Made by a program: the position numbers and the translations under genes. The notes beneath the pieces were generated by a model that was given only the letters and a program-made list of their open reading frames with translations, did no database searches and was not told where the DNA came from. From Nakazawaea peltata (lineage: Eukaryota > Ascomycota > Pichiomycetes > Alaninales > Pachysolenaceae), in the NCBI GenBank assembly GCA_001599355.1, contig BCGQ01000001.1, positions 809,135-873,134 of the forward strand: DNA of 64,000 bases, written 5' to 3'. This document shows, piece after piece, positions 1-64,000 of the stretch (position 1 is the stretch's first letter; each line of letters opens with the position of its first letter).

Positions 1-226
1 CGGCCGATCCGGTCAAAGCATGACAAATCACCATACAGTTGTTCAGCTCCAGATTCAATTTACCATATGTTTGGTACAGAACAGGAACATTGAATATCAC
101 ATCACCGCTCTCTAAAGTGACCTCTTCGATCTCGACAAATTTCTGGGAAGCCACCAATTTTGAGAAAGGGTTCTCAGGCTGGGGTTCATCCAGTGTAATT
201 TCTTTGAATTTCAATTCCTGAGACAT
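1..226 (-). CDS. MET2: Homoserine O-acetyltransferase, N-terminal part (runs off window start)
   Basis: Partial gene: the ATG lies at 224-226 on the minus strand and the frame stays open to base 1, giving about 75 residues. The end of the visible part, CMVICHALTGSA, matches the alpha/beta-hydrolase core of Met2, which acetylates homoserine in methionine synthesis. The preceding NVPVLYQTYGKLN is also typical of the family. Two CTG codons follow, giving LNxExNN; reading them as Ala resembles the LNEAGDN-type segment I remember from yeast Met2. The catalytic Ser, Asp and His lie outside the window. The gene is divergent from the next one with about 240 bp between start codons. I saw no CACGTG (Cbf1) site in that gap. 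Confidence 0.88.
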   Translation of the reverse strand, partial: MSQELKFKEITLDEPQPENPFSKLVASQKFVEIEEVTLESGDVIFNVPVLYQTYGKLNLELNNCMVICHALTGSA

Positions 227-467
227 GTCGAATCGTACTAGTAACTCGTAGCCACCTGCCGATGATCTGTTTAAATATTTAAGTCCAACTCGATGATGTG
301 ACTAATCGGCCTCGAAGTTTTCAGACTTTTTCTTACCGCCCATTTCGGCGGAGAGGTGGAGGGGGATGAAGGGAAAATTTTGTAGCTGCGGGCTCAACCA
401 CAGTTTTTCAGGAGGAGATGAGAAGGTGTAAGAGGGCGCTTAGTAGAAGGAAGGTAAGGTATTGGAA

Positions 468-1544
468 ATGGGATATCCACAGGGGAACTGCCATGTTTAT
501 GGAGGAGAGGTGGATGATTTGAAGAAACCTTTGAGTTCGTTTGAGAGACATAACTTTGTGGATAAGGTGGACATTTTGATCTCCAAGAGTTACTATGAGC
601 TGAACAAAGAGGTGATGAATATTCCGTTTGAAAGTTATAATTTGAAGTCTACGTGTTTGGGGAATGTTTTATTGAATGATAGTGTGATTAGACTTGTTCA
701 GCATCCGCAATTCCATGTCAAGGCTGTGATGAAGTCAGAGTTGAGTAACAATGATTTGTTTGTACTGATCTTAAAAGACACACTTTTAATCACATTATCG
801 AAAGAGCTAAGTTGGCAAACAGGATTACAAATGAAACCGTCTTCATTCAAGAATTCCGATCAATATCAGTTCCGTTACAATTTGAATAAACCAGACTTGG
901 CTTCTGATACTACTTTTTTGAAGATACTAAGGTTTTTCCAACTGCAGATCTCTGGTGAATATGAGATTATCATGTCTATAAGTGATGTCAATGGAAGACC
1001 TATGGTACTTTCAGATGAGCAATTATCAAAGATTGATTTGGAGATGAGAATTGGATCCCATACAGGTTCAGCTTCTAGAAACTCAATAGTCCAACCATTG
1101 GTCTCATATTTCGACAACAAAATTGTCCCAGAGAAGATGATCGTAGAACTGAATGATTCAACTTCAGCTTTAGATATGTTAGAATACTTATCTTATCTTT
1201 CGATCGATGGCTCCCAATTAACTAGCCCAGTCGACTCATTTCTATCACTGTATACAGAATCAGTTGATATATTACACAATTCTACAAAGAGAGATGATAT
1301 AGTGAAGGTTTCATATCATGCTGGATTGGTGCCTAGTTTCTACATTCAGAAATCTGTAATCCAGAATATCCCAACCGGAGGGTCATGGATTGCAATCTTA
1401 GCTCACGGAATCGAGAACGTCAACTACGGCTTTGGATTCTCGGAACATTTTTTCCATGAATCGGGCGAAAACAATACTTGTTATCTCCAGAGTGGAAACA
1501 CTTTTGTTCTTTGGGAAACTGTAGGGGGAAGAGACAGTTACTAA
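468..1544 (+). CDS. Unrecognised protein, 358 aa
   Basis: A clean open frame of 358 codons from the ATG at 468. A TTG two codons upstream (462) also lies in frame but is not a likely start. I do not recognise the family. The protein is soluble-looking, without signal peptide, membrane segment or low-complexity run, and it ends in an aromatic and Gly-rich stretch (WIAILAHGIENVNYGFGF, later FVLWETVGGRDSY) that looks like a folded beta-rich C-terminus. Length, codon use like its neighbours and lack of repeats support a real gene. It is divergent from MET2 and is followed after about 100 bp by the PWI-domain gene on the same strand. A fast-evolving subunit of a conserved complex is possible, but I cannot name one. 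Confidence 0.8.
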   Translation: MGYPQGNCHVYGGEVDDLKKPLSSFERHNFVDKVDILISKSYYELNKEVMNIPFESYNLKSTCLGNVLLNDSVIRLVQHPQFHVKAVMKSELSNNDLFVLILKDTLLITLSKELSWQTGLQMKPSSFKNSDQYQFRYNLNKPDLASDTTFLKILRFFQLQISGEYEIIMSISDVNGRPMVLSDEQLSKIDLEMRIGSHTGSASRNSIVQPLVSYFDNKIVPEKMIVELNDSTSALDMLEYLSYLSIDGSQLTSPVDSFLSLYTESVDILHNSTKRDDIVKVSYHAGLVPSFYIQKSVIQNIPTGGSWIAILAHGIENVNYGFGFSEHFFHESGENNTCYLQSGNTFVLWETVGGRDSY

Positions 1545-1650
1545 GAAAAAATTTTCGGGTCATAAAAAATTCTCTGTATTTAAAGGGGTGAATAGATGGA
1601 GAAGGTGAAGTGAGGGGAAGTGAAAAGAAGATCAAATTGAAGATTTCAAG

Positions 1651-2602: not shown

Positions 2603-4348
2603 ATGTCCGAGTCTCAAGAGGGTGGCCATCACCACCATCATCACCATCATGATAAGGGTGATCAACTGCAACAACCTGGTACCAGAATCGGGAAGTATCA
2701 GGTGGCAAAGACCCTTGGAGAAGGTTCCTTCGGTAAAGTCAAATTGGCCTACCATATGACTACAGGCCAGCGTGTCGCATTGAAAATTATCAATAGAAAG
2801 ACTCTTGCTAAGTCTGATATGCAAGGTAGAATAGAAAGAGAGATCTCGTACTTGAGATTGTTGAGACATCCACATATCATCAAGTTGTATGATGTGATAA
2901 AATCCAAAGATGAGATCATCATGGTTATGGAATTTGCCGGTCAAGAGTTGTTTGACTACATTGTTCACACTGGTAAGATGAAAGAGGAAGAGCTGAAGAG
3001 ATTTTTCCAACAAATTATTCTGGCTGTTGAATACTGTCATAGACATAAGATTGTTCATAGAGATTTGAAGCCGGAGAATTTATTGTTGGATGACCAATTG
3101 AATGTCAAGATTGCCGATTTCGGGTTGAGTAATATCATGACCGATGGAAATTTCTTGAAGACAAGTTGTGGTTCTCCAAACTATGCTGCTCCAGAAGTTA
3201 TCTCTGGTAAATTGTATGCTGGACCAGAGGTTGATGTCTGGTCTTGTGGTGTTATTTTGTATGTTATGCTCTGTGGAAGATTACCATTTGACGACGAGTT
3301 TATTCCTCTGTTATTCAAGAAGATTAGTAATGGTGTTTATACTCTTCCAAACTACTTATCTCCGGGTGCTAGAAACTTATTGACTCGTATGCTTGTTGTA
3401 AACCCATTGAACCGTATTTCAATCCATGAGATTATGGAAGATCCATGGTTCAAGGAAGGATTCCCTGATTATTTGACACCTCAAGAGATGAAGAATAACA
3501 AACTTGAGATCGATAATGATGTGGTTAATGCCTTATCATTCACTATGGGTTACGATAGAAATGACATTGTCGAGTCGTTAAAGGCTGGTAGAAACTCCGA
3601 GAACGCAGCTCTTATTGATGCCTATGAATTGATGAAAGAAAATAAAGTACTTGTTGAAGAAATTAAGAAAAACCCATCTCATATGGATCTGTTCTTACTG
3701 CAATCTCCACCTACCAGACTTTCAAATGATAATCAATTCAAGACAAAGGAACAAATCCAATTCCAACTGTTGAGTAACACCCCTTCAAACCCAGATAACT
3801 CCGAGTATCAAAGTACAATTGCTATTTTGCCTTCTTCATTACCTCAGATTCATAAACTGTACATGCAATCGAAGGCCGAGACTCAAAGTATCCTGAAGGT
3901 AACTCCTATGTCTACTAAAAAATCCAAGACCAAGTGGCATTTCGGTATCAGATCAAGATCGTATCCTTTGGATGTGATGGGAGAAATTTACAGAGCCTTA
4001 AAGAACTTAGGAGCCGAATGGGTTAAACCTTCTGAAGAAGATTTGTGGACAATCAGAGTAAGATGGAAATATGGACCAGCTGGATCTTCTGCTCTGCAAC
4101 AAGAATTTATGAAGATGGTGATACAATTATTCCAATTGGAGCCTAACAATTATTTGGTTGATTTCAAATTTGATGGATGGGAAGGAGGAGCCCAAGGATC
4201 ACAAAGTGCTTCTTCTAGTAGTAAAGATCCATCGAATAAAGAAGAAGATGAAGATGATTACGACGAACTGAGTTCGTTTAGTGCATATCCATTTTTGCAT
4301 CTTTCGACACAACTTATTTTGGAGTTGGCAGTAAATAGTCAAGGATGA
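2603..4348 (+). CDS. SNF1: SNF1 / AMP-activated protein kinase, catalytic alpha subunit
   Basis: 581 residues. An N-terminal His tract (residues 9-16) recalls the longer one in S. cerevisiae Snf1. The Ser/Thr kinase domain spans about 32-283, with glycine loop GEGSFG, lysine K61, HRD catalytic Asp154, DFG Asp172 and activation-loop Thr187 in FLKTSCGSPNYAAPE. The region after it (VVNALSFTMGYDRNDIVESL) is the UBA-like autoinhibitory domain. The C-terminal regulatory domain has WHFGIRSRSYP and ends with PFLHLSTQLILELAVN, as in the family. Snf1 acts with Snf4 and a beta subunit in glucose derepression. CTG codons at residues 131, 140 and 236 sit where relatives have Ala or, at 140, often Ser. Overall length is slightly below the 633 of S. 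cerevisiae. Confidence 0.97.
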   Translation: MSESQEGGHHHHHHHHDKGDQLQQPGTRIGKYQVAKTLGEGSFGKVKLAYHMTTGQRVALKIINRKTLAKSDMQGRIEREISYLRLLRHPHIIKLYDVIKSKDEIIMVMEFAGQELFDYIVHTGKMKEEELKRFFQQIILAVEYCHRHKIVHRDLKPENLLLDDQLNVKIADFGLSNIMTDGNFLKTSCGSPNYAAPEVISGKLYAGPEVDVWSCGVILYVMLCGRLPFDDEFIPLLFKKISNGVYTLPNYLSPGARNLLTRMLVVNPLNRISIHEIMEDPWFKEGFPDYLTPQEMKNNKLEIDNDVVNALSFTMGYDRNDIVESLKAGRNSENAALIDAYELMKENKVLVEEIKKNPSHMDLFLLQSPPTRLSNDNQFKTKEQIQFQLLSNTPSNPDNSEYQSTIAILPSSLPQIHKLYMQSKAETQSILKVTPMSTKKSKTKWHFGIRSRSYPLDVMGEIYRALKNLGAEWVKPSEEDLWTIRVRWKYGPAGSSALQQEFMKMVIQLFQLEPNNYLVDFKFDGWEGGAQGSQSASSSSKDPSNKEEDEDDYDELSSFSAYPFLHLSTQLILELAVNSQG

Positions 4349-7893: not shown

Positions 7894-7913
7894 ATGATCG
7901 CGCAGTTGCGCAC

Positions 7914-7934: not shown

Positions 7935-7986
7935 TAACTAGTGAAAAAAAACAACTGAAATCCAATCCATTCAATGAATCAAAGCA

Positions 7987-9180: not shown

Positions 9181-11523
9181 TCATTTAGAAGCATATGTAT
9201 CGATCAACTCTTGTTCAACCTTCAATGTCTCATATCTATAGTTTAATCTAATATCTGGGACATTGGTCTTCTCTATATCGTTTCCATCAGGTCCCTCTAA
9301 GATGAAATTCTCACCTAACCAATGTCTCTTCAACTCGTATTCGAAACCACTTTGTAAGACCGAGTTTCTTGCCAATTCACTTAAATCCACATTACTCAAC
9401 TTGTAGATTTGAGCAGCTACAGAGTACTCTTCGATCAACGGTTCTCTCGTGTACGAAAATTGTAAAGGATCATCAGTAGACAACGAGACATTCAAACCTC
9501 TTCTGAAGTATCCAGGGAACGGATTCTTATCGTACGTCAAGAACAAAGCATTGTTGGAAAGTGGAGACATTGCAACTGGGACTTGGTCCAAGTAGTACAA
9601 GTATTGAACAAATGGTAACTTTCTCAACAAAATACCATGGGAAATACCTTCGGCGACCAAATATGAGTTGATCAAATGTTCTGGATCACCAGCTTCTCCG
9701 GAATGTGGTCTTAAGACAAAGGTATTGAACCCTCTCTTTTGTCTCCAATTGTTCAATGAACAAATATTACAGTAAAGATAATACAAATAATACGAGTATG
9801 GTGGGTTAGTAGCAGCATCCCAGTACCTTGGAGTCGGATACTTCTTCTGGAATCTTCTATCAGCCTTGGACTCATCATCCACGGAGTCAAATCCAATAAC
9901 TCTTTGTAAAAAGACATGTAATTTAGGATGAGATTTAGGATTCTTAGTAACTTCATAAAGAGGCTCAAAGATATTCTTGACAATGTCTTGGAAATTACTG
10001 ACCAACTCTCCCTTCTTGTAGATACTATATAAACGAGGGATCTGGATCAACCATCTAACATTATGACTGAATAATTTGTTGTCTACAACCCAAGCCAGTA
10101 ACTTATCCCATTCATCGGTGGATCTTCCATAGATAGAAATTCTATACTCGGTCATTTGGTACTTGGATTGTTCTAAATCATCGAATACTTCTCTTGTGAT
10201 TTCGGCAAGATATCTACCTTGGATAAAGTTATCGGTCTTCAAAAAGATTTCTCTCAAACGAGATTCTCCTACGGGATTATATTTCAAATTGAACTTATCG
10301 AATCTGTGGAAAGTGTCTTTATGAGCATGCATATCCAAGGTATCGATACTCAAATCATAAGCTGTCAAATTCAACGATTTGAATACCTCTGAAAGTGTCA
10401 AGACTTTCCCATCTCTGAAGATCACCTTCTCATCCAGACATTTTCTGATCTTATACTTGATAAATCTTAACAAATGCTTTTGGTTCATACAAGCAGAGTG
10501 GTGGACGTGGGTATCGACTTTTCTAACGTTATAGAAATCTCTATGTGGGTTCCTCTTTGACTCTGCAATCTCTTGATACTCATTAAGTAAACTGTAAAGA
10601 TTCCATTTAGCCTCCAAATACTCCAATCTTTTGAAGGCAAATGACTTTGTAGGGCCATCTGACGCAAACGCAATGATCTTATCAAGATCCATATAATAAT
10701 CTCTAATAGTAGGGACGTTAAGTAACTTCTCTTTAGTATGGGAGTCTACAATTTGATAACAATCTTCATCATCGAGATAAAAATCGATATCTGGATCTTC
10801 ACCCGGGATTTCACACTTGTCAAACTCAAACTCAGACTCCTTCAGCTGGTTCCCATTCACATCAAACTCCTTGTTATTATCCTCAATCTTCCATTTAGGT
10901 CTAGGAGGATCAGGATAGATTCTCCATTCTCCATTTGGGTTATTCTTTGGGTTATCTGAGAATCTTTGTAAAGAGATCTTCTGGTATTTGGCTCTCAAAT
11001 CACGGCAGATCTTGATCTGTTTGTAAATCAGAAGTACTTCATCCGATGGTGTCTCAGTAATAGCATTATGGTCATTCTCGGTGATAGAACCCAACTTGAA
11101 ATGGATATCTCTGTTAGTAACCGGGTGTTTTTCGATGACTGGCAGGTGAGAAGGACCTGGAATTCTCGATTTACTCAATGGGGATGGTGCTGGTGCTGGT
11201 TCCACAAGTGAATATCTTCTAGAAGAAGTACTAGGAGAAGAACCCTGCAGATTAACAGCCTCCAACGCCTTCAATTTCAAGTGATGTTCGTATATTTGAC
11301 GATCCTCAGCAACTGAATAATGAGTAGAAGCACTTCTATTCATAGCATCTTCATGAATATCATCAACGTCATCATCATCCCCACCACCATTCCTCTCGGC
11401 GCTTAAATATTGAGGAGCATATGGATGATGATCATCATGAAGCAATAAATTATCTTTAGTCAACTGTGAAGACGAGTCGTCTAAATTCATCTCTGAGAGT
11501 TTCCTAGCTGTATTTTGCGGCAT
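9181..11523 (-). CDS. AMD1: AMP deaminase
   Basis: 780 residues on the minus strand with ATG at 11521-11523. It converts AMP to IMP plus ammonia in purine salvage and adenylate control. The N-terminal about 140 residues are variable and low-complexity. The catalytic TIM barrel begins near VDTHVHHSACMNQKHLLRF, which holds metal-binding His residues, and includes SLSTDDPLQFSYTREPL, the signature with the metal-binding Asp pair, followed by LARNSVLQSGFE. Length is close to the 810 of S. cerevisiae. A CTG codon in DEWDKLxAWVVDNK is at a position I recall as Ala in the orthologue. The gene ends 28 bp from the PFA5 stop (convergent) and shares a 215-bp promoter with LTN1. Confidence 0.97.
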   Translation of the reverse strand: MPQNTARKLSEMNLDDSSSQLTKDNLLLHDDHHPYAPQYLSAERNGGGDDDDVDDIHEDAMNRSASTHYSVAEDRQIYEHHLKLKALEAVNLQGSSPSTSSRRYSLVEPAPAPSPLSKSRIPGPSHLPVIEKHPVTNRDIHFKLGSITENDHNAITETPSDEVLLIYKQIKICRDLRAKYQKISLQRFSDNPKNNPNGEWRIYPDPPRPKWKIEDNNKEFDVNGNQLKESEFEFDKCEIPGEDPDIDFYLDDEDCYQIVDSHTKEKLLNVPTIRDYYMDLDKIIAFASDGPTKSFAFKRLEYLEAKWNLYSLLNEYQEIAESKRNPHRDFYNVRKVDTHVHHSACMNQKHLLRFIKYKIRKCLDEKVIFRDGKVLTLSEVFKSLNLTAYDLSIDTLDMHAHKDTFHRFDKFNLKYNPVGESRLREIFLKTDNFIQGRYLAEITREVFDDLEQSKYQMTEYRISIYGRSTDEWDKLLAWVVDNKLFSHNVRWLIQIPRLYSIYKKGELVSNFQDIVKNIFEPLYEVTKNPKSHPKLHVFLQRVIGFDSVDDESKADRRFQKKYPTPRYWDAATNPPYSYYLYYLYCNICSLNNWRQKRGFNTFVLRPHSGEAGDPEHLINSYLVAEGISHGILLRKLPFVQYLYYLDQVPVAMSPLSNNALFLTYDKNPFPGYFRRGLNVSLSTDDPLQFSYTREPLIEEYSVAAQIYKLSNVDLSELARNSVLQSGFEYELKRHWLGENFILEGPDGNDIEKTNVPDIRLNYRYETLKVEQELIDTYASK

Positions 11524-18636: not shown

Positions 18637-20286
18637 ATGAGTCCTTCTAGTACCAATACTATCTACGCCACATCAAATGGTGTACCTCAATTGAATCACC
18701 CCTATGGGGCACAGAGGTCGCAACCTGGTGGGCCTTTATTAATTCAAGATTTTAACTTGATGGACACTTTCGCTCATTTTGACAGAGAACGTATACCAGA
18801 AAGAGTCGTTCACGCAAAGGGTGGTGGTGCTCATGGAGTTTTTCAGTTGACAAAATCATTGGAAGATTTGACCTTCTGTCCAATGCTTACTACTGAAGGT
18901 TATGAATGTCCTTTGACAATCAGATTTTCTACTGTTGGTGGTGAGAGTGGAACTCCAGATCTTCTGAGAGATCCAAGAGGTTTTGCTATCAAATTGAGAA
19001 CCGACTGGGGTAATATGGACTGGGTCTTTAACAACACCCCTGTTTTCTTCATCAGAGACCTGTTAAAATTCCCTCATTTCATCCACACTCAAAAGAGAGA
19101 CCCAAAGACTCATATGGCCCAACTGGTTGAGTCCACTATGTTCTGGGATTATCTTACCCAAAATGTTGAGTCAATTCACCAGATCACTTACATGTTTGGT
19201 GACCGTGGAACTCCTAAGGATTGGGGAGCCATGCATGGTTACTCCGGTCACACTTTCAAGCTTTACAACCTGAAGAATGAGATGACATACATTCAAATCC
19301 ATGTTCTCGCAGATGATGGTTTCAAGACTTTTGAGTCTAATGAAGAGTATGCTGAACTGTCTGCAAACCCTGAGTATAACACCAAGGTCTTACAAGACCG
19401 TATCGCTGCCGGAGATTTCCCATCTTATACTTGTTATGTCCAGACCATGACTCCAGAGCAAGCTGAGAAATTCAGATATGATGTTAACGATTTGACTAAG
19501 ATTTGGTCTCATAAGGATTTCCCATTGAGAGAGTTTGGTAAGATCGTCTTGAATAAGAACCCAGACAATTATTTCCTGGATATTGAACAAGTTGCGTTCT
19601 CTCCTGCTCATCTTTTGCCAGGTATTGGTCCTTCTAATGATCCTGTCTTACAAGCTAGATTATTCTCATATAGTGATACTCACTACCACAGACTTGGTGC
19701 CAATTACCAGCAATTGCCTGTTAATAAGGCTCGTACTTTTGATAGAACTTCTGGTTGCCCATTCTTGGCTGGAAATTTCCAAAGAGATGGTCCTCAAACT
19801 ATCAGATCTCAAGGTGATGCTCCTAACTATATTTCTTCTGTAAGTCCTATCAGTGCTGCACAATTGGGACCTGATGGTAAGTTGAATTTCGATATGAACG
19901 ATAAATATCTCGGAGTTGTTTCTCTGGCTGCTGAAGAGAAGTCTACTCAAGAACAACTGAAAATCAATTTGCAAGAGCATGAATTGAAGATGTGGCACAA
20001 ATCATCGTACTTCTCCATCTCTGGTGTCTCTGAATTGGATCTCGAACAACCTAGAGCTTTGTATCAAAAGGTCTACAATGATGATCAGAAGCAAAGATTC
20101 ATCGAGAATGTCGTAGGTCATGCTAAGAACTGTTCTACTAAGGAAGTACAGCTGAAGATTCCACAATACTTTGGTTTGTTAGATAAGAACCTTGGTGAAC
20201 AAATTGCTAAGGGATTGGGAATTACATACAATTACGTTGATTTGGAGGGTTACCTTGATTCTGTTAAGCCAGCTGCTGCTATTTGA
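18637..20286 (+). CDS. CTT1: Catalase T (cytosolic heme catalase)
   Basis: 549 residues from the ATG at 18637; an in-frame TTG at 18610 is not the start. It breaks hydrogen peroxide into water and oxygen. FDRERIPERVVHAKGGGAHG holds the distal catalytic His, VFNNTPVFFIRD the catalytic Asn, and RLFSYSDTHYHRLGANYQQ the proximal heme-ligand Tyr and Arg. The N-terminal HPYGAQRSQPGGPLLIQDF and ESIHQITYMFGDRGTP match Ctt1 rather than peroxisomal Cta1, and the C-terminus (KPAAAI) lacks a PTS1 signal. So it is probably cytosolic. Two CTG codons (SGTPDLxRDPRG and FIRDxLKFPHF) correspond to Ala in the Ctt1 sequence I recall. Confidence 0.95.
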   Translation: MSPSSTNTIYATSNGVPQLNHPYGAQRSQPGGPLLIQDFNLMDTFAHFDRERIPERVVHAKGGGAHGVFQLTKSLEDLTFCPMLTTEGYECPLTIRFSTVGGESGTPDLLRDPRGFAIKLRTDWGNMDWVFNNTPVFFIRDLLKFPHFIHTQKRDPKTHMAQLVESTMFWDYLTQNVESIHQITYMFGDRGTPKDWGAMHGYSGHTFKLYNLKNEMTYIQIHVLADDGFKTFESNEEYAELSANPEYNTKVLQDRIAAGDFPSYTCYVQTMTPEQAEKFRYDVNDLTKIWSHKDFPLREFGKIVLNKNPDNYFLDIEQVAFSPAHLLPGIGPSNDPVLQARLFSYSDTHYHRLGANYQQLPVNKARTFDRTSGCPFLAGNFQRDGPQTIRSQGDAPNYISSVSPISAAQLGPDGKLNFDMNDKYLGVVSLAAEEKSTQEQLKINLQEHELKMWHKSSYFSISGVSELDLEQPRALYQKVYNDDQKQRFIENVVGHAKNCSTKEVQLKIPQYFGLLDKNLGEQIAKGLGITYNYVDLEGYLDSVKPAAAI

Positions 20287-26084: not shown

Positions 26085-26603
26085 TTAGTTGAAGTAAGCT
26101 TCTGGCATGTAATTAGATGAATACTGTTGTGGGTGACCTGGGTGTTGGCCAGGGTGTGGTTGACCCATTGGAGCCAGTTGTTGTGGAGCCAGTTGAGGAG
26201 GCAGTTGCAGTTGCTCATCTTGTTCCCCGTTTTCTTCTGGGTCTTCCTCTGGAGCATTCAAACAAGCTTGAATCAAGTTCTTACCTTCTGGCTTGGTGAC
26301 CAAAGGTTGCAACTTTGGAGTGGTGAAAGTGTAAACCAAACCGGTCTCACTAACAACCAACAATAAGACTTGAGTACCGGTTAAAACACTTAATTCGTAC
26401 AGCTTCTTCATAATACCAGCCTTTCTCTTGGAGAAAGTGATATGTCTTCTAGACTTATCTTGGATAAATCTGATCTCGATCTTTCTTCTTTCTCTGGCCT
26501 TACCTCCAGCTCCTCCTTCGTCATCATCATCGACGGCCAATTGACTTTCGTCAACTGGATCTTCAGCACCCAAGGTTTGTTCTAATTTGACTTCGTCAGA
26601 CAT
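26085..26603 (-). CDS. MCM1: MADS-box transcription factor Mcm1
   Basis: 172 residues, minus strand, ATG 26601-26603. The MADS domain covers about residues 38-93 (RKIEIRFIQDKSRRHITFSK then TGTQVLLLVVSETGLVYTF), followed by the SAM-type extension ending NLIQACLNAP. Mcm1 recruits mating-type, cell-cycle and arginine cofactors to CC(A/T)6GG sites. The N-terminus is acidic and the C-terminus rich in Gln, Pro and His, shorter than the polyGln tail of S. cerevisiae. Residue 68, in IMKKxYELSVL, is encoded by CTG (26400-26402); MADS relatives have Ala here, strong support for CUG-Ala. A 3' splice-site-like sequence ends 7 nt before the ATG. Confidence 0.96.
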   Translation of the reverse strand: MSDEVKLEQTLGAEDPVDESQLAVDDDDEGGAGGKARERRKIEIRFIQDKSRRHITFSKRKAGIMKKLYELSVLTGTQVLLLVVSETGLVYTFTTPKLQPLVTKPEGKNLIQACLNAPEEDPEENGEQDEQLQLPPQLAPQQLAPMGQPHPGQHPGHPQQYSSNYMPEAYFN

Positions 26604-41196: not shown

Positions 41197-43176
41197 TTAA
41201 TGAGTGATATACTCGGAAGAGCCATTAATAGGCAGTGAAACTTCGGTGGAATCAACAGTAGACAGGGGCAGAGCAGGCAGAGCAGGCAGAGCAGGCAGAG
41301 CAGGCAGAGCAGGCAGAGCAGGCAGAGCAGGCAGAGCAGGCAGAGCAGGTTCCGTTGCCTCCACAATCTCAACCTCTCCCTCCTTACTTCTCAACTCCTC
41401 ACGAAACTTCTTATCACTAACCTGATAAATCCCATTCTCCAGATCAATTAATTCACACTCTAATTCACTATCCAATATAGACTTGAAATCCTTATGATCA
41501 ATCTCCCATCCCAACCGTCCACATATATAACTAATAATAGGATCACAATAACCTAGAAGACTAACGTCAAACTCACAATGACTAACAGGATCTCTATTAA
41601 TAAGAATTTGTGGAACGTCTGTGGAAATTTGATTGACAATTTCCGAAACAGGGGCAACTTTTAACGAGGTCCCAATACAAACCAATAAATCACATTTTTT
41701 CGCATCTTCGGCAATCAAATCATGGTACCTTTTTGGCAACAGCTCACCGAAAAAAGTGATATCAGGCTTCATTACACCAAATGATCCATCCATCTCAGAT
41801 TTTTCTCTCTCTTTTTTACACCAAGGGCATAAGGGGAGCTCTTTAGCTCTGATTTCTTTGTATATGGTGGAGCCAGGAACTTTGAATCCGCAAGTAATAC
41901 ATGTCAGTGTGGCAAACGAGCCGTGACACTGGACCAACTTATCCAGATCGACTCCAGCATTCTCCTCCAAATTATCAATATTTTGAGTATAATTCCTCAA
42001 TAATTTTCCCTTGTCTTGTACAAGCTTTATAAACCCGTGTAAAGGGGTAAATGCGTCATCTGGGGGTAAAATCATGTGCGCTATAGAGTAAAATAATTCT
42101 GGTTCTTCGTGGAATTGGGGTAAACTAAACACTTCCTGAGGGTCGCTGAGTCCAAGGTTTGTGATCTGGGAATAAAAACCTTGTGAAGATCTGAAATCGG
42201 GGATTCCTAATGAGGTGGAAATCCCAGCCCCTGTTAAGATCAATATATTCTCACTTGTCTTCAATTTTTCTAAAACTTGCTCGATCGTCTTGAAATCTTC
42301 TAATCTGATACGGGTATCTAATACTTTGTTCATCAGCCTTTGGAGGAGATGAATGGAGTATCTTAATTTCAAGACGTCATCGTCAGAGTCAGGGATACGG
42401 GCACGGAATCCAAGTAATGAGATCACACGTTTAATTTCCTCCGCTCCCAGAGTTATTGGTAAATATTTATCGAGGAATACTTGGGATCCGGCTTGTTTTA
42501 AGAAATGTCTAGCGATGAATTTTTCACGGTCAGAAATCGAGTCGTCACTATCACCACTGTCATCACTATCATCACTATCACTATCACTATCATTAGAATC
42601 GAAACTGTGACTTTCAGATCTGTCTCCGGTTTCACCCAGCAGAAGTTGAGCTTGGGATTCGAATTCGGGACCCTCATCGGATGCAGAATCATCTTCAGAT
42701 CCTGTACCTGCAGACCCCAGATCTTCCTCGGCATTTGCAGACTTGATATCTGCAGACTTCATGTCTTCAGACCCCATATCCACACCATCTCCCTCTAATG
42801 GTTCACTTTTCACCCTCTTCGATTTAACTTCCCCCTCTAACCCTATCAGGTCATTCTTAGACCGTTTCCCACGTTGACTAAACTCCATCAGCTCTTCTTC
42901 ATCTGAAATATATATAGTTTCATGAGCAGCCAGAACACCCCGCCGCACTTCTTCTGATGACTCAGAGTCAAAATTCAGCTCATATCCACCATTATACCCA
43001 TTCACCACCTTTCCATCAATTCTCGGACTATCAACACCAACCTCTTTAAATACAGGCAGAGACGCAGTCAGTGAAACACCTGAATCTGTGGGTGTTTTGA
43101 GCGGCAACGACCGGATATCGTGATCAGATTCATCGTCCGAGTTCTTCAACTCGATAGCTGGCGAAATCCCACTCAT
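41197..43176 (-). CDS. Sir2-family NAD-dependent histone deacetylase (Sir2/Hst1)
   Basis: 659 residues from the ATG at 43174-43176; the frame continues upstream to a GTG at 43248 without another ATG. The first 230 residues are acidic and Ser-rich. A Sir2 N-terminal region (REKFIARHFLKQAGSQVFLD) precedes the catalytic core with GAGISTSLGIPDFRSSQGFY, TQNIDNLE, catalytic His in VQCHGSFA, two Zn-binding CxxC pairs (CITC and CPWC) and CIGTSLKVAPVSEI. This is the Sir2/Hst1 subtype; I cannot tell silencing Sir2 from Hst1. A CTG in FATxTCITC corresponds to Ala. The C-terminus carries nine PA-CTG repeats (PAA under CUG-Ala). Confidence 0.93.
   Translation of the reverse strand: MSGISPAIELKNSDDESDHDIRSLPLKTPTDSGVSLTASLPVFKEVGVDSPRIDGKVVNGYNGGYELNFDSESSEEVRRGVLAAHETIYISDEEELMEFSQRGKRSKNDLIGLEGEVKSKRVKSEPLEGDGVDMGSEDMKSADIKSANAEEDLGSAGTGSEDDSASDEGPEFESQAQLLLGETGDRSESHSFDSNDSDSDSDDSDDSGDSDDSISDREKFIARHFLKQAGSQVFLDKYLPITLGAEEIKRVISLLGFRARIPDSDDDVLKLRYSIHLLQRLMNKVLDTRIRLEDFKTIEQVLEKLKTSENILILTGAGISTSLGIPDFRSSQGFYSQITNLGLSDPQEVFSLPQFHEEPELFYSIAHMILPPDDAFTPLHGFIKLVQDKGKLLRNYTQNIDNLEENAGVDLDKLVQCHGSFATLTCITCGFKVPGSTIYKEIRAKELPLCPWCKKEREKSEMDGSFGVMKPDITFFGELLPKRYHDLIAEDAKKCDLLVCIGTSLKVAPVSEIVNQISTDVPQILINRDPVSHCEFDVSLLGYCDPIISYICGRLGWEIDHKDFKSILDSELECELIDLENGIYQVSDKKFREELRSKEGEVEIVEATEPALPALPALPALPALPALPALPALPALPLSTVDSTEVSLPINGSSEYITH
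41268..41348. repeat. 9-bp in-frame repeat, nine perfect copies, in the Sir2-family gene
   Basis: GCAGAGCAG is repeated nine times without a mismatch on the plus strand. On the coding (minus) strand the frame is CCT GCT CTG, giving Pro-Ala-CTG nine times, followed by CCC CTG. Standard code would give PAL repeats; CUG-Ala gives PAA repeats. Perfect identity suggests recent expansion by slippage. Confidence 0.95.
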
Positions 43177-51998: not shown

Positions 51999-52275
51999 TT
52001 ATCTTCTTACCTGTCACCTGTTCTCTCTTCAAACTCTTGATGATTCCTCGGTCGAGATATTTTTTCCGCCCATCGCTTGGCGCAAAATGAAAAATTTGGC
52101 CGAGATTGGGGGTGGGAGTGTGGAGGGGGGGGGGGNGCGCGAGTATCCCTTCTCTGGGGGGTTAGATGGAGGAAGGGAAGGTAGGGGAAGTAGAAGGTCG
52201 TAGATAGCTATACAGAACATGGACAGGTGGAAATATCGCATTGACTACAGCAAACTCATATCAATATCCTTAACA
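51999..52275. other. RIB2 promoter region with G-run and one ambiguous base
   Basis: 277 bp. The plus strand is G-rich at 52106-52196, with 11 consecutive G at 52125-52135 followed by an undetermined base (n) at 52136, the only ambiguous base I noticed in the window. The ambiguity most likely reflects sequencing or assembly difficulty in the homopolymer. Confidence 0.8.
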
Positions 52276-53566: not shown

Positions 53567-56500
53567 ATGAAACGGACAACGAACGAGTCAGATACGGCAT
53601 TGAAGAAGCGGAAGATTGAAGCTTTCCCTGAGTCCTTTCAAGAACTCGAGAAAATTCACTTCCGGTTGAATAGTTATTTCACGTTTCTCAGTAGTCGCAA
53701 GCATGTGATCACGACATTTGATATGATGAAAAGTTCGCTGGAGGCAAGCATTAAGAGACCATTGGAGTTGATAGACGTTGCAAAGCTTTGTTATTTACTT
53801 CCGCATGACATAGTTTTTGAGTACTGTGATGAGAACCAGTTCTTAGTAGAAGAGAAGAAGTTCACATATCGTAAGGGACATGAGCAGAAGGAAACTGATA
53901 TGTTTGAATTGAAAGATGATAATTATGATAATCACACTAAAGCTCTGCAGTTATTAGTGTTTGAATTTGTAGATGGGAATTTGAAGAAGTCAAAGACCAA
54001 GTTATATCACCGGTCTGAGATCAGACTTCCTGTGTATACTCCAGAGTCAATGAAGCTGTTAATTAAGAGAAGAGATGACAAATTTATTACCCTGGTGACG
54101 AACTTTCTAGAGAATTGTGAGAACCAGGGGATTCAGGACCCTATGTCAGAACTTAATAAACTCCTGGAACCACTCATACCTAAACCTAAAGAGTTCGTTG
54201 ACCTGATCGAAGAGATGATCAAAAATAGTGAGAAGAACAGACGTCAGAATCAAGATTTGCAAAGACCCCCAATTACCGATTTCATACAACATTTACAACA
54301 GACGAATTTCTATAGAAACCAAATTGTTCCAGATGGTGTGTTCACCATCCCAAGTAGAAAGGCAACTTATGAGGATCTTGAGTTCCCGTTATCACCTGAG
54401 ATCTGGCATGCTTTAGAGACTTCACAACACGTTGAAAACTTCTATTCTCATCAGCTGAAGGCATTGAACGAAATTCATAATGGTAAAAACGTAATTATTT
54501 CCACCTCAACTTCATCAGGTAAAACCTTAGTATATCAGGTACCTGTCATAAAAGCATTAGGTGATGATAATGAAGATATATCCTGTATGTACATTTTCCC
54601 CACAAAAGCATTGGCCCAGGATCAGAAACGTTCTTTGACAGAATTGTTATCTTACTTCCCCCAATTAGAGGACGTGGTAGTAGAGACTTTTGATGGAGAT
54701 ACAGAGAAGAATAAAAGAGATTATATTAAGAATAATGCTAAGGCTATCTTCACAAACCCAGACATGTTACATAACAGTATTTTACCTGCCCATCTGACCT
54801 GGAGAAAGTTCTTATCCAAGTTGAGGTACGTGGTGATTGACGAGATTCACATGTACAAAGGTTTATTTGGATCTCATGTGTCATTAATTATGAGAAGACT
54901 ACGTAGAATCTGTCATTGGTTGGGTAATACCAATTTACAGTTCATCTCTTGTTCTGCTACTTTAAAGAACCCAATGCAACACATGCATAATATCTTTGGT
55001 GTAGATGTTGAAGATATAGTACATATATCTGAAGATGGCTCACCATCTGGGGAGAAGCATTTGGTGGTTTGGAATCCTCCATATTTGAACCCAAGTGATC
55101 CTGCTAATGGTAGAGAGTCTCATATTGCTGAAACGTCCAAGATCTTAGTGGAACTGATGTTACAGAACATTAGACTCATCGCTTTCTGTGTAGTGAGGAA
55201 ACTGTGTGAGTTGCTTATGAAAGACGTTAGACTGAGACTTGAAAAAATAGGTAAGCCTGAGTTGATCAGTCAAGTCATGAGTTACAGAGGAGGATATTCT
55301 CCCTCAGATCGTCGTAAAATTGAGAAGGAGATGTTCAGTGGTAATTTAAAGGCAATCATTTCAACCAATGCTTTAGAATTAGGTATCGATATAGGTGTTT
55401 TGGATCTGGTGTTGATATGTGGGTTCCCCATTACGATGGCGAACTTCCACCAACAAAGTGGTAGAGCTGGTAGAAGAAATAAAGACTCGTTGACCTTAGT
55501 AATAGGAGGTAATAACCCAGCTGACCAACATTATATGAAACATCCGGATCTTATGATGCAGCATGACTATCAAGATTTACTTTTGGATTTTGACAATTTA
55601 CTTGTGCTTGAAGGACATGTTCAGTGTGCTGCATTTGAGCTACCTTTACTTGATTTAGCTGAAGAGTCTCATTGGTTTGGTGATCTACTGAAGCTCGAGA
55701 AGGTCTGCTCTGAGAGGTTATTGTTTGATCCAAATACTGGTAGATATCATGTTCATAATAGGTTTTTACCTTGGCCTGCAAGTAATGTCTCGATCAGAGC
55801 CATTGAGGAAGATTATTATGCGGTTGTAGATGTCACTAATGGTAGAAATGTAGTGATAGAAGAAGTTGAAGCATCAAGAACTTCTTTTACCTTGTACGAT
55901 GGTGGAATATTCATCCATCAAGGTTATCCCTATTTAGTTCGTGAGTTCAACTCCGATGAGAAGTATGCCAAGGTAGAAAGAACTAGCGTAGAATGGACGA
56001 CAAGTCAACGTGACTTCACAGATGTGGATCCCAAGGAGATCGAATTGATAAGATCGTTGAGAGGCACTTCTGACGTTCCTATCTATTTTGGAAAGATCGA
56101 GACTACGATTGTGGTGTTTGGATTTTTCAAAATGGATCCACAACAGAGAATTTTGGATGCTGTCGAAGTGAATAACCCCCCAATTACTATACATTCGAAA
56201 GGAATTTGGATTGATATACCCAACAAAGCATTGGAGTTGATCAAATTCAAGCATTTGAGCGTTCCTCTGGGTATTCATGCTCTGCAACATGCTATCATCT
56301 CTCTTTTACCTTTATTTATTGTTAGTGGATCCGATGAGATCCAATCTGAATGTAAGGCTCCAGAGAAAGAATTTGCTACTAGGCAAACTCAGAGGAAGAG
56401 ACCCCTGAGGTTGATTTTTTACGATGCCAAGGGGGGTCAATGGGGATCTGGATTACTGACTAAGCTGTTTGACAACATTGACCAGATTTTGGAGGACAGT

Positions 56501-56953
56501 CTCACTAGAATTATGGAATGTCCATGCGATTGGGGGTGTCCAGACTGTGTGGCAGGTCTGTTTTGTAAAGAGAACAATTTGGTTTTGTCAAAACCTGCCG
56601 CATTGATTATCTTGAGTGTTATATTAGGCAAGGAAGTCGATTTGGATACCATCTTGACAGGGCCTGAACCCAACATGCCGGATATTGTTGTGGAGACAAT
56701 TGTTCCCGTGACAACTCATGTCAAATTTTCTCCTGATTTGGAAATCATAGATGTCAAAGCACTGGAGAAACCTTTAAAAGAGATTCCAAAAGACGAGGTT
56801 GTCCAAATCATTAAAGAGAACACTGTACTGGGAGACACGATTATTAAACAAGAAGAGCCAGAGCTCAAGATTGAGAATTCTGGTGATGAGCAAAACATTG
56901 AAGATGAGTTTTCAGATGATCTCGATTCAGAAATAGCAAATTTACCAAAATAG
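53567..56953 (+). CDS. HRQ1: RecQ4-family DNA helicase Hrq1
   Basis: 1128 residues from the ATG at 53567; an in-frame GTG at 53546 is not used. Hrq1 is a 3'-5' helicase for crosslink repair and telomere maintenance. Helicase motifs: STSTSSGKTLVYQ (Walker A), FPTKALAQDQKR (Ia), VVIDEIHMYKG (DEIH box), FISCSATLKNP (III), STNALELGIDIG (V) and QQSGRAGRRNK (VI). The C-terminal DUF1998-type domain has the four-Cys cluster ECPCDWGCPDCVAGLFC. An acidic tail ends the protein. The CTG codon in YSHQxKALNEI corresponds to Ala in the yeast segment I recall (SHQADALN). S. cerevisiae Hrq1 has 1077 residues. Confidence 0.95.
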   Translation: MKRTTNESDTALKKRKIEAFPESFQELEKIHFRLNSYFTFLSSRKHVITTFDMMKSSLEASIKRPLELIDVAKLCYLLPHDIVFEYCDENQFLVEEKKFTYRKGHEQKETDMFELKDDNYDNHTKALQLLVFEFVDGNLKKSKTKLYHRSEIRLPVYTPESMKLLIKRRDDKFITLVTNFLENCENQGIQDPMSELNKLLEPLIPKPKEFVDLIEEMIKNSEKNRRQNQDLQRPPITDFIQHLQQTNFYRNQIVPDGVFTIPSRKATYEDLEFPLSPEIWHALETSQHVENFYSHQLKALNEIHNGKNVIISTSTSSGKTLVYQVPVIKALGDDNEDISCMYIFPTKALAQDQKRSLTELLSYFPQLEDVVVETFDGDTEKNKRDYIKNNAKAIFTNPDMLHNSILPAHLTWRKFLSKLRYVVIDEIHMYKGLFGSHVSLIMRRLRRICHWLGNTNLQFISCSATLKNPMQHMHNIFGVDVEDIVHISEDGSPSGEKHLVVWNPPYLNPSDPANGRESHIAETSKILVELMLQNIRLIAFCVVRKLCELLMKDVRLRLEKIGKPELISQVMSYRGGYSPSDRRKIEKEMFSGNLKAIISTNALELGIDIGVLDLVLICGFPITMANFHQQSGRAGRRNKDSLTLVIGGNNPADQHYMKHPDLMMQHDYQDLLLDFDNLLVLEGHVQCAAFELPLLDLAEESHWFGDLLKLEKVCSERLLFDPNTGRYHVHNRFLPWPASNVSIRAIEEDYYAVVDVTNGRNVVIEEVEASRTSFTLYDGGIFIHQGYPYLVREFNSDEKYAKVERTSVEWTTSQRDFTDVDPKEIELIRSLRGTSDVPIYFGKIETTIVVFGFFKMDPQQRILDAVEVNNPPITIHSKGIWIDIPNKALELIKFKHLSVPLGIHALQHAIISLLPLFIVSGSDEIQSECKAPEKEFATRQTQRKRPLRLIFYDAKGGQWGSGLLTKLFDNIDQILEDSLTRIMECPCDWGCPDCVAGLFCKENNLVLSKPAALIILSVILGKEVDLDTILTGPEPNMPDIVVETIVPVTTHVKFSPDLEIIDVKALEKPLKEIPKDEVVQIIKENTVLGDTIIKQEEPELKIENSGDEQNIEDEFSDDLDSEIANLPK

Positions 56954-57159: not shown

Positions 57160-57642
57160 TTACTCTTGAGAAACAGCAGTCAAGATGTCAGAGTCACCAG
57201 CATCGGTGATAGCCAAGACACCGACTCTGAATAATCTACCACAAGCGGTACCCAACTCGTTGTTACCACCTGGGAAGTAGTAAACTTGAGTCTTGGACAA
57301 CATGGCGTAGTACTCCAACTCGGACTTTCTCAAGGTTGGGGTGTTGGCAGCGATGATAATCAACTTAGCCTTACCTTGTCTAATAGACTTGACGGTAGAC
57401 TTGTAACCCAAGGTGTACTTACCAGACTTAATAGTCAAAGCCAACTTGGAGTTGATGTTATCAGCGTTCTTCTTAACTTTTGGGGCCTATAAAATTAGTT
57501 AGTATAAACATTCCCACTTTCTTTAGATCCGAAGCAGATGCTCTATTCTCTAAACACCATGTTCATATGTGCATATATCCATTATAACACAATCCACGAG
57601 TTCCAGTGACATCCATATGCTTCTTTAAAATATACTGACCAT
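57160..57642 (-). CDS. RPL30: 60S ribosomal protein eL30, spliced after the ATG
   Basis: Exon 1 is the ATG alone (57640-57642); intron 57487-57639; exon 2 57160-57486; 109 residues (S. cerevisiae 105). Exon 2 starts [20 protein letters not shown] and contains [39 protein letters not shown] and [20 protein letters not shown], an unmistakable eL30. The donor is the rare GTCAGT, as in S. cerevisiae RPL30; branch site TACTAAC at 57498-57504 and acceptor TTTTATAG. Splitting after the start codon is also the S. cerevisiae arrangement. The leader forms the L30-binding kink-turn, so autoregulated splicing is expected. No CTG codon is used. It is divergent from RPL24. Confidence 0.93.
57487..57639 (-). 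other. 153-nt RPL30 intron with GTCAGT donor
   Basis: Begins GTCAGTATAT immediately after the ATG and ends TACTAACTAATTTTATAG, with 12 nt from branch adenosine to AG. The non-consensus donor is shared with S. cerevisiae RPL30, where L30 protein bound to the leader blocks progress of U1-bound pre-mRNA to U2 recruitment. Confidence 0.85.
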
Positions 57643-57675
57643 CTCTGCGTTTGTATATTAAATTACACTCCGGTC
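57637..57675 (-). promoter_or_regulatory. L30-binding kink-turn in the RPL30 pre-mRNA
   Basis: On the minus strand GACCGGAGTGT (57675-57665) pairs with ACGCAGAGATGGTC (57650-57637). The helices are GACC/GGTC and GTGT/ACGC, and between them lies an asymmetric purine-rich internal loop GGA / AGAGAT. The start codon and the first intron bases (GTC) form part of the structure. Helices, loop and position match the L30 autoregulatory element known from S. cerevisiae, as I remember it. The apical loop here is longer (14 nt). Confidence 0.85.
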
Positions 57676-58124: not shown

Positions 58125-58586
58125 ATGAAGGTTGAAGTTTGTTCATTCTCCGGTTCCAAGATCTACCCAGGTAGAGGTACCTTGTTTGTCCGTGGTGACT
58201 CCAAGATTTTCAGATTCCACTCTTCCAAGTCTGCTTCCTTGTTCCACCAAAGAAAGAACCCAAGAAGAATCTCTTGGACTGTTTTGTACAGAAGACACCA
58301 CAAGAAGGGTATTACCGAAGAGGTTGCCAAGAAGAGATCTAGAAAGACCGTCAAGCACCAAAGAGCTGTTGTCGGTGCTTCTTTGGAGTTGATCAAGGAG
58401 AGAAGATCCCAAAAGCCAGAACAAAGAAAGGCCGCCAGAGAGGCTGCTGTCAAGGCTGACAAGGAAAAGAAGAAGGCTTTGAAGGCTCAAAAGAAGGCTG
58501 ACAAGGCTGCTGGTATCGCTGGTTCCAAGTTCTCTAAGCAACAAGCTAAGGGTGCTTTCCAAAAGGTCCAAGCTACTTCCCGTTAA
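58125..58586 (+). CDS. RPL24: 60S ribosomal protein eL24
   Basis: 153 residues (S. cerevisiae 155). The N-terminal domain [20 protein letters not shown] then [20 protein letters not shown] is the conserved eL24 fold, followed by [20 protein letters not shown] and [20 protein letters not shown]. The C-terminal helix is Lys/Ala-rich and ends [17 protein letters not shown]. It forms bridge eB13 to the 40S subunit. Codon use is extreme: Leu only TTG, Ala only GCT/GCC, no CTG at all. Unlike S. cerevisiae RPL24A/B, no intron interrupts this copy. It shares its promoter with RPL30. Confidence 0.98.
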
Positions 58587-59353: not shown

Positions 59354-60472
59354 ATGGCACCAAACTTGGATAAATATGCCAAACCTGGCAAGAATTACTA
59401 CATTGCACTTGGTTTAGAAGGGTCTCTGAACAAGTTAGGAGTAGGAATAATACGACATGAATTAGGAGAGTTAACGCCTAGTAATAAAGCAACGATATTG
59501 AGTAATATCAGAGACACATATAATCCTCCTCCAGGAGAAGGATTCTTACCTAGAGATACTGCTAGACATCATAGAAACTGGGTTGTAAGATTGATAAAGA
59601 GATCATTGCTGGAGTCGGGATTGAAAGGATCTGATTTAGATGTGATTTGTTTCACCCAAGGTCCTGGAATGGGGGCTCCATTACAAAGTGTTGTCATTGC
59701 CGCAAGAACGTTATCTCAATTATGGGAAATCCCATTAGTAGGTGTTAATCATTGTATTGGTCATATTGAGATGGGTAGAGAAATCACCGATGCTCAAAAT
59801 CCCGTTGTCTTATATGTGAGTGGAGGTAATACTCAAATCATTCTGTATTCGAAACAATGTTATAGAATCTTTGGAGAAACATTGGATATTGCAATTGGTA
59901 ATTGTCTTGATAGGTTTGCTCGTGTCTTGAGAATCCCTAACGATCCAGCTCCAGGTTATAATATCGAACAATTACTGAAGAAAGGTAAACATCTTGTCGA
60001 ATTACCATACACCGTAAAGGGAATGGATATGAGTATGAGTGGAATCTTGGAGTATGTTGAGACTTTGGCAAGTGACTTGTTCAAGAAGAAGAAGAACAAA
60101 CTTCTTATCGCCGAGGAAGATGGTGAAGATATCACCGTTGAAGATTTATGTTTCTCCTTACAAGAATGTCTTTTTGCCATGTTGGTGGAAATCACCGAAA
60201 GAGCTATGGCTCACGTCAACTCTAACCAAGTATTAATTGTAGGTGGTGTGGGATGTAACTTAAGATTACAAGAGATGATGCTGATCATGGTTAAAGATAG
60301 AAACGGAAGTATCTATGCTACAGATGAAAGATTCTGTATCGATAATGGAATTATGATCGCGCATGCTGGTTTGTTGCAATACAGAATGGGTGATACTACA
60401 GAGATTTCCAATACTGTGTGCACACAAAAATTTAGAACTGATGAAGTGCATGTTAAATGGAGAGATGATTGA
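59354..60472 (+). CDS. KAE1: KEOPS complex tRNA t6A threonylcarbamoyltransferase
   Basis: 372 residues from the ATG at 59354 (S. cerevisiae 386). It transfers threonylcarbamoyl to A37 of ANN-decoding tRNAs. The ASKHA-fold motifs are clear: [42 protein letters not shown] (metal-binding His pair), [46 protein letters not shown] and [14 protein letters not shown]. Five CTG codons (GSxNKLGVG, SLxESG, QLxKKGK, QIIxYS, EMMxIM) sit where I recall Ala in yeast Kae1. GSANKLGVG in particular is near-invariant, making this gene one of the best witnesses for CUG-Ala. Confidence 0.97.
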
Positions 60473-61605: not shown

Positions 61606-61631
61606 TTGGTATTTATTTCTTTTTATATAAC

Positions 61632-63296
61632 TTAGGCTGGAATACCTCTACCTCTACCTGGAGCACCACCACCTTGAGCTATACTTTGATTTGGAGCGGA
61701 ACTTTCCTTATTTGTGATGGTTTCATCAACACTTAAGATCAAATTGGCCAGTTCACATGCACTTTGAATAGCATTGATCTTGACTAAACTTGGTTCCCAA
61801 ACAAAGCTCTCCATATTATCTCCGACAGACTCTTCTTCGAAGTCGATACCGAACCAAGTTTCACCCTTAGCATGAGCAGATCTCAATTTGTTCAACAAAT
61901 CGGTACCATCGAAACCAGAGTTCTCACACAATTGTCTTGGGATAACTTCTAACAGCTTAGCAAATGCAGATATTATTAATTGTTGTTTGCCTGGAATCTT
62001 TTTAGAGTAGTCTCTTAAGTATTTGGATAATTCCATCTCGATTGCACCACCACCGGCGACAACACTGTTGTTTTGGACGGCTCTCTTTACGATCATAATG
62101 GCATCATGTAAGGATCTTTCAACTTCAGCAATAACTTGCAGAGCTCCACCTCTTAAGATTAAGGTACATGTTTTCAGCTCAGGACAACCTTTGAATAAAT
62201 TGTAACGTTCATTACCGATTTGAACCTCTTCGAAAGAGCTACAAGTACCTAAATGTTCAGGCTTGATATCGGAGGTAGTCGATTGGATAGAACCTCCGAC
62301 AGCTTGGATGACTCTTTCAATATCTTCAGCTGCTACTCTACCGGCACAGAAGATATTTCTATCGGCAAAGTATTGAGTCAGTAAATCTCCAATTGGTAAT
62401 TTAGACAAGACAATATTAGCTCCAGTGTTAACTATCAGTTCCAATTTATCAAAGATGATTTGCCATTCAGCATCGACAATAGCTTGATAATCGTCGACTT
62501 GTTCTATTCTTACCTCGGCATTATCCTTCTCTGCTTTCAATTCTAATTCGACATTAAGTGTTAAGATCTTTGGGTCTGTGAATTTCTTTGGTTGTTGTTC
62601 GAATCCAGCGTAGGAGAAAGTCTTCTTAAAAGCGACACCATCAATGAACAAGGAATCTTCCATACCACCACCTGGAACCTTCTTAATACCGATCAAATCT
62701 TCATTCAAATCATCTTGATCAAGTGATAAAACTGCATCGACAACCATCTTGGTGAAAAATTCCGAATTATTATTAATCAATTTAGAAGACATCAGAGTTT
62801 TAGCACATCTTTCTAACAATTCTCTGAACTTGACTTCATTCAGTTTATCTTTGGAGATTTCAACGGCCAATTCTTTAATTCTTTGAACAGCTAATTGACA
62901 CAGTTTAGAATAACCTTTAGTAACGACATGAGAAGATATTCCTTCTTCGATAAAACTCTTGGATTCTTTCAAAAATTCACCAGCCAACAAAGTGACAGAG
63001 GTGGTACCATCACCAACTTCCAGATCTTGAGCACGTGAAATATCGACTAACACTTTAGCAGCAGGATGAACAACGTCGAGTAATTTCAAGATTGTAGCAC
63101 CATCATTGGAGATCGTAGTTCTGCCATTGCCATCGACAATCAATACATCGGATCCCAATGGGCCCAAAGTAGGTTTCAATGTGTCTTGGATAGCGATACA
63201 GGCATTGATATTGGAGATAATTTGTCCTCTTCCTTGAGAGGTGTCGGTTCCCTCTTTCAAGACGACAACTGTAGGTGTTTGACCTCCGAAATTCAT
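61632..63296 (-). CDS. CCT7: Cytosolic chaperonin TRiC/CCT subunit eta
   Basis: 554 residues (S. cerevisiae 550), minus strand. [18 protein letters not shown] is the eta-subunit start. The ATPase motifs are present: [39 protein letters not shown] and [13 protein letters not shown]. The apical segments [13 protein letters not shown] and [17 protein letters not shown] are specific to CCT7, and the tail is [11 protein letters not shown]. It folds actin, tubulin and WD proteins in a 16-mer. CTG codons in RAQDxEVGDGTT, CAKTxMSSKL, CPExKTCTL and ACExANLIL fall at positions that are Ala in yeast Cct7; the first is nearly universal among group II chaperonins. Confidence 0.98.
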
Positions 63297-63628
63297 CTCT
63301 TGATCTTTAGTGGTCTGGTTCTTTGAGGTTTAAAGGTAGCGATTAAACGCCCCCATTAAATCAGTGAGGAAAATTTTTTTTGTCGACGCGTTAAATTGGG
63401 AGGTACACGACGAAATGAGGGAGGTTTGGGGTGCGCGGGAATGGGGGTGCGCGGGAAGTGGGCGGAGAATGGGTGGGAGTAGGCGAAGGATAGGCGGAGG
63501 ATAGGCGGAGAGTAGGCGGAGAATGGGTGGGGAGGAGGTGGAGGAGAAAGAGGAACTAGACCGAGGGGCAGATGAGGACTAGCCCCAGCATAGATGCTAC
63601 AACATTCAAAATAATATTTACAGATTGA
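63297..63628. other. CCT7 promoter region with G-rich repeats
   Basis: 332 bp. On the plus strand a duplicated GGTGCGCGGGAA (around 63430-63458) is followed by four 11-bp units of the form AGGATAGGCGG (63486-63529). The CCT7 coding strand is thus C-rich here. No gene seen; the MDV1/CAF4 3' end lies at the far side. Confidence 0.6.
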
Positions 63629-64000
63629 TTATACAGCATAACTAATAACCTCACCAGATGATGTCCCACCAACAACATAACTGTCCTTGTACCTAACATA
63701 ATTAACAATAGACGAATCACCATTATCACAAGTCCAATGTCTTTCTTCAACTCTATCGTAGATTTTGACAGATGATTCTCCATTACTACTAACGATTCTT
63801 CTTGAATCAAATTGTAAAGAGGAAATAGGAGAATCGTAAGCAAAGGCATCTACAATTCCACCAGTACGTAAATCCCAAATTCTAATAGAACGATCAGTAG
63901 ATCCTGTAGTAAGATGTTTATCATCGAATTGTAATGAAGTAACTGGACCAGTATGACCAACGAGTTGTCTGATCACTTCTCCTGATCTCAAGTCCCATAA
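63629..64000 (-). CDS. MDV1: WD40 mitochondrial fission adaptor, C-terminal part (runs off window end)
   Basis: The last 123 residues of a larger protein; the frame is open through base 64000 and ends with TAA at 63629-63631. WD40 repeats are evident: [40 protein letters not shown] and the closing [37 protein letters not shown] and [14 protein letters not shown] closely match the C-terminal beta-propeller of yeast Mdv1 and its paralogue Caf4, which recruit dynamin Dnm1 through Fis1. In species without the duplication there is one MDV1/CAF4 gene; which applies here cannot be seen. The N-terminal and coiled-coil parts are outside the window. Confidence 0.85.

Follow-up and report, generated by a model that had tools for sequence, protein, structure and literature searches.

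We analyzed the protein-coding genes of the 64-kb stretch of DNA presented above (hereafter the window) and found that its CTG codons preferentially occupy alanine (Ala) positions of conserved proteins. The window is almost certainly ordinary nuclear DNA from a budding yeast that belongs to the CUG-Ala clade, with CUG read as Ala and the other sense codons keeping their standard meaning. Both the residues opposite CTG in homologous proteins and the fit to protein family models placed Ala first, as had been claimed in an earlier reading of the sequence (hereafter the original prediction). Serine (Ser), said there to fit less well, was a distant second, and leucine (Leu), said to be wrong, came far behind in both tests. 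The phenomenon is already known in kind, and what is known about the code is unchanged. For annotation, CUG being Ala means that the window proteins are to be translated with NCBI genetic code table 26; the standard table would mistranslate 298 codons in 34 open reading frames (ORFs).

The window has a GC content of 38.9% and contains one N. ORFs were delimited by TAA, TAG and TGA, the stop codons thus standing outside the test of codon meaning, and the 34 plausible ones total 15,913 codons (stops included), among which in-frame CTG makes up 18.7 per thousand. Pfam families were found in 28 of the 31 scanned ORFs and include SNF1, AMP deaminase, listerin, catalase, AP endonuclease, a MADS factor, capping enzyme, DAP3, the NatA auxiliary subunit, lipin, sirtuin, Nuf2, HRQ1, KAE1, Spc34 and CCT7, a list from which we took the window to carry an ordinary budding-yeast gene set. 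The gene names are backed by Pfam and, for the eight column-tabulated proteins, also by matches in the Protein Data Bank (PDB). Searches by tblastn with CCT7 against viral contigs and with KAE1 against genome contigs found no relative.

To tabulate the residues opposite CTG, we translated the codon as X in six proteins (CCT7, KAE1, SNF1, catalase, HRQ1 and NAT1), so that no amino acid was favored in the alignments, and aligned them to homologues with solved structures in the PDB. The PDB records give molecule names only, and the species of the chains are those we presume. From the alignments listed, we used two of five for CCT7, four of five for KAE1, two of five for SNF1, two of three for catalase, one of four for HRQ1 and two of five for NAT1. 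Those omitted were mostly near-identical chains, the exceptions being three for HRQ1 and one for catalase that involve other, more distant or lower-scoring proteins; for the best NAT1 chain, the first aligned stretch alone entered the counts. We required at least four identities among the 8 to 10 flanking residues, a filter passed by 32 of the 71 CTG codons of the six genes.

The 62 residues facing these 32 sites were Ala in 34 cases, followed by Ser (5), Glu (3), Lys (3) and Leu (2), with the other 15 spread over ten further kinds of residue. Fourteen sites were Ala in every homologue used, one was Ser throughout (in a single homologue) and none was Leu throughout. This tabulation, which the original prediction had proposed as a check, gave columns in which Ala, and neither Leu nor Ser, predominates over the conserved sites. 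The same alignments served as controls: GCN codons faced Ala in 163 of 223 cells, the TCN and AGY codons faced Ser in 125 and Ala in 34 of 229, and the five Leu codons other than CTG faced Leu in 264 of 369. Every other sense codon with good sampling fits the standard code. For every other codon with more than eight cells, the commonest facing residue was the standard one; it was non-standard only at AGC (eight cells), TGC (six) and CGG (one), too few to judge, while CTA was sampled by one cell (Leu) and CGA and CGC by none.

Adding five sites of CEG1 and one of MCM1, read by eye without the flank filter (for MCM1 from two of three listed alignments), brought the set to 38 sites in eight genes. 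We scored these for all 20 residues with BLOSUM62 and one vote per site. Ala was the best residue, at +28.3 log2 units over background, followed by Ser at +8.9 and Thr at +0.6; all other residues scored below zero, Leu reaching −20.1. At 15 sites, at least two homologues shared one identical residue, which was Ala at 13, Glu at CCT7 386 and Pro at catalase 142, and at none Leu or Ser.

Protein family models provided a second test, comparing the three residues Ala, Ser and Leu. Thirty proteins were first scanned under table 26, and the 24 with a family containing CTG were scored with CTG as Ala (table 26), Ser (table 12) and Leu (table 1). Reducing overlapping families to one per stretch left 39 stretches, of which 35 were informative (scores differing by more than 0.1 bit). 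Table 26 gave the best fit of the three: the best residue was Ala in 27 of the informative stretches, Ser in six and Leu in two, and the summed scores under Ala exceeded those under Ser by 60.1 bits and those under Leu by 152.9 bits (Wilcoxon p = 1e-5 over 34 pairs and p = 4e-9 over 35 pairs, respectively). Among the overlapping families dropped, dCMP_cyt_deam_1 scored 5.3 bits higher with Ala than with Ser, and TPR_2 ranked Leu (44.5) above Ser (43.4) and Ala (43.0). For three genes where the original prediction had also placed Ala, namely AMD1, the Sir2 homologue and PAH1, the assessment was by Pfam score, and Ala was best in each.

These comparisons leave little room for the two other meanings of CUG that we considered. 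Under the standard code, with the Ala matches arising by chance, one would point to the Got1 and Helicase_C stretches, where Leu scores best, and to CEG1 73 and NAT1 195, which lie opposite hydrophobic residues. However, Leu is nearly absent opposite CTG while dominating opposite the other five Leu codons, and its summed Pfam deficit is large; we give this reading essentially no credence. A Ser meaning, as in the Ser1 and Ser2 clades (table 12), draws on Ser being the second-best residue in the 38-site score and the best one in six stretches, parts of SNF1 and HRQ1 among them, and on SNF1 codon 140 facing Ser in one of the two homologues used. Against it, Ala is better in 28 of the 34 stretches in which the two differ, the sites with agreeing homologues include no Ser, and true Ser codons mostly face Ser, whereas CTG faces it in five cells and Ala in 34. 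In addition, CTG is frequent here, whereas CUG is reported to be under-used or avoided in Ser clades (PMC6701816, PMC11540330). A Ser meaning is therefore extremely unlikely.

Some observations do weigh against reading CUG as Ala throughout. Eight of the 35 informative stretches favor Ser or Leu (SNF1 adenylate sensor, MFS_1, Catalase-rel, Got1, DEAD, WHD_HRQ1, Helicase_C and Ribonuc_P_40), and GCN columns are more purely Ala than CTG columns. Single sites look Leu-like (CEG1 73, I/L/M; NAT1 195, L/M), and in the NAT1 stretch that stayed outside the counts, three of four CTG sites do not face Ala by eye (Q at codon 505, V at 508 and G at 513, against A at 671). The lower purity at CTG is one of two facts that could suggest ambiguous decoding, in which CUG is mostly Ala but a different amino acid is inserted in a small proportion of cases. 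The other is that CTG makes up 168 of the 498 Ala codons lying outside Pfam stretches and a smaller share, 118 of 451, of those inside (Fisher p = 0.013; counted over 31 of the 34 ORFs and 286 of the 298 CTG codons, minisatellite included). Both are also expected, however, if CUG codons arose chiefly where constraint is loose, as is reported to be the tendency in code-changed clades (PMC5951914), and a minor misincorporation is not measurable from a DNA window. We consider ambiguous decoding very improbable.

Taking CUG as Ala, the window counts directly show a yeast in which Ala is commonly encoded by CUG outside the genes for ribosomal proteins. CTG ranks second of five among the 976 Ala codons of the 34 ORFs (GCT 348, CTG 298, GCC 164, GCA 130, GCG 36). 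It occurs at sites where all the homologues used have Ala, such as KAE1 25 and 208 (four homologues each) and CCT7 92, and is missing from the RPL24 and RPL30 frames, as the original prediction had noted: together these contain 29 GCN codons and no CTG, an outcome with a probability of 2.6e-5 at a CTG share of 30.5%. In the same two frames, 16 of the 17 Leu codons are TTG and all 29 Ala codons are GCT or GCC, a strong codon bias of genes that are presumably highly expressed. Given the lower share in Pfam stretches and the absence from these two frames, CTG behaves in the window as a common but unpreferred Ala codon. This adds one data point on the spread of a reassigned codon, found at Ala positions of distant homologues and missing from two ribosomal-protein frames. 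No per-species CUG frequency for the Ala clade was found in the literature searched, supplements not being covered.

The original prediction had named individual CTG codons, and the eight given with positions (63021, 59426, 26400, 2993, 3020, 3308, 39986 and 40082) are all in frame in the genes it assigned. Its statement that orthologues have Ala at nearly all the named sites goes too far when these are taken one by one. Among the 17 readable sites, ten are mainly Ala (CCT7 92, 168, 374 and 516; KAE1 25, 164 and 208; MCM1 68; CEG1 143; CTT1 110), two are mixed (KAE1 310, A/R/S/K; SNF1 131, A/G) and five lack Ala (KAE1 86, T, with one homologue past the filter; SNF1 140, S/C, and 236, V/N; CTT1 142, P; HRQ1 297, Y). 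Because the aggregate is decisive, the Ala conclusion survives such single sites.

CCT7 has Ala in both homologues used at seven of nine filtered sites, and its codon 152, which failed the filter, faces Ser and Ala. In KAE1, codon 164 faces Ala in three of four homologues. The MCM1-like gene has Ala opposite CTG 26400–26402 in both Mcm1 and SRF, and CEG1 codon 143 faces Ala in three homologues. In the two catalase homologues used, Ala stands opposite codons 110 and 314, Pro opposite 142 and K/S opposite 212; codons 241 and 506, dropped by the filter, face Ala and Asp, respectively, in each of the three chains as read by eye. The three aligned CTG sites of the SNF1 kinase domain all belong to the mixed or Ala-free sites above, and the four HRQ1 sites passing the filter, against the distant MrfA/YprA, face Y, T, V and A. 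For the inositol 5-phosphatase, the PDB matches were distant (best 78 bits) and excluded from the column counts, and the Pfam score was retained.

The code and the yeast gene content together, and nothing else in our data, would place the window in the order Alaninales, to which NCBI taxonomy now assigns Nakazawaea, Peterozyma and Pachysolen. CUG-Ala is reported as a property of these three genera (PMC5951914), in agreement with the original prediction, which had called it established for the Pachysolen/Nakazawaea group. Its further claim that the code fixes the lineage stands in pointing to the Pachysolen-Nakazawaea-Peterozyma clade but does not single out a genus. A yeast outside that clade with an independent origin of CUG-Ala, and CUG a leading Ala codon as counted here, is highly improbable. 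The window shares with the CUG-Ala clade the CTG codons at Ala positions, the standard meaning of the other well-sampled sense codons and the budding-yeast genes, and no difference in kind is shown; with the CUG-Ser code it shares the reassigned codon, but Ser is clearly worse than Ala in columns and Pfam models. The phenomenon is well covered, since the Codetta study is described as having chosen every Saccharomycetes genome, those of the CUG-Ala clade among them, for inferring the meaning of CUG (PMC8629427); a codon-usage study states that five CUG-Ala genomes were omitted (PMC6701816). Ascoidea rubescens is given as CUG-Ala in one review (PMC5499181), whereas mass spectrometry is reported to show Ser (PMC5951914), and we followed the latter. 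Further details of the features discussed are collected in the table.

Features of the window, with numbers of in-frame CTG codons and Pfam bit scores given as Ala / Ser / Leu
Feature	Position	Strand	CTG	Remarks
Open frame cut by window edge	1-301	-		resembles N-terminal part of homoserine O-acetyltransferase by reading of sequence
SNF1 kinase	2603..4348	+	11	
AMD1 AMP deaminase	9181..11523	-	6	1000.3 / 998.9 / 994.3
Catalase (CTT1)	18637..20286	+	9	
MCM1-like MADS gene	26085..26603	-		SRF-TF 76.8 / 73.7 / 73.1
CEG1 capping enzyme	31618..33105	+	8	
NAT1/NAA15	35586..37928	-	15	NatA_aux_su 415.8 / 411.0 / 401.2
PAH1 (lipin)	38795..41095	+	13	LNS2 322.4 / 321.3 / 317.4
Sir2 homologue	41197..43176	-	26	DUF592 77.4 / 72.6 / 73.2; SIR2 211.5 / 209.9 / 208.9
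Coding minisatellite (CCT GCT CTG)n	41267..41349	-		perfect 9-bp repeat, 9.2 copies, 100% identity
Inositol 5-phosphatase ORF	52276-53394		16	159.5 / 158.4 / 147.2
HRQ1 helicase	53567..56953	+	21	
RPL30 open frame	57160..57486	-	0	11 GCN Ala codons; name from reading of sequence, exon boundary not set
RPL24	58125..58586	+	0	18 GCN Ala codons
KAE1	59354..60472	+	5	
KAE1 codon 25 CTG (EGSxNK)	59426..59428	+		
CCT7 (TCP-1 eta)	61632..63296	-	10	Cpn60_TCP1 542.1 / 536.0 / 520.6
CCT7 codon 92 CTG (RAQDxEVGDGTT)	63021..63023	-		Ala in 5/5 homologues among the matches listed
Open frame with WD40-like repeats, window edge	about 63629-64000	-		by reading of sequence

A genome of the CUG-Ala clade would be expected to carry a tRNA-Ala with anticodon CAG and G3:U70 and to lack tRNA-Leu(CAG). 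No tRNA was found in the 64-kb window by ARAGORN (bacterial settings, which may miss some intron-bearing eukaryotic tRNAs) or by Rfam at gathering scores. A loose A-box/B-box pattern for a CAG-anticodon tRNA matched once, within the Sir2 ORF at 41946, and we took this match as chance. As the literature suggests, CUG would be read by a tRNA-Ala whose anticodon changed to CAG, charged by an alanyl-tRNA synthetase that may not depend on the identity of the anticodon bases; the original tRNA-Leu(CAG) would have been lost. Alanyl- and seryl-tRNA synthetases are reported to require no particular anticodon bases, and losses of tRNA-Leu(CAG) to have gone with the three code changes, the gene still being kept in four of five Ser2 species (PMC5951914).

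Nine CTG codons of the Sir2 homologue come from the minisatellite, which is in frame close to the C-terminal end of the protein and gives Pro-Ala-Ala repeats under table 26. CTA is very rare, with 29 occurrences among all ORF codons of the window; it is described as under-used in CUG-Ser clades (PMC6701816) and as unpreferred across the subphylum (PMC11540330). The sole N, at 52136, stands at the end of a G run between a RIB2-like gene and the inositol 5-phosphatase ORF and probably reflects a sequencing problem. At the left edge of the window, the truncated frame, putatively MET2, has a CTG in the motif NVPVxYQTYG, at a position where its relatives presumably carry Ala.

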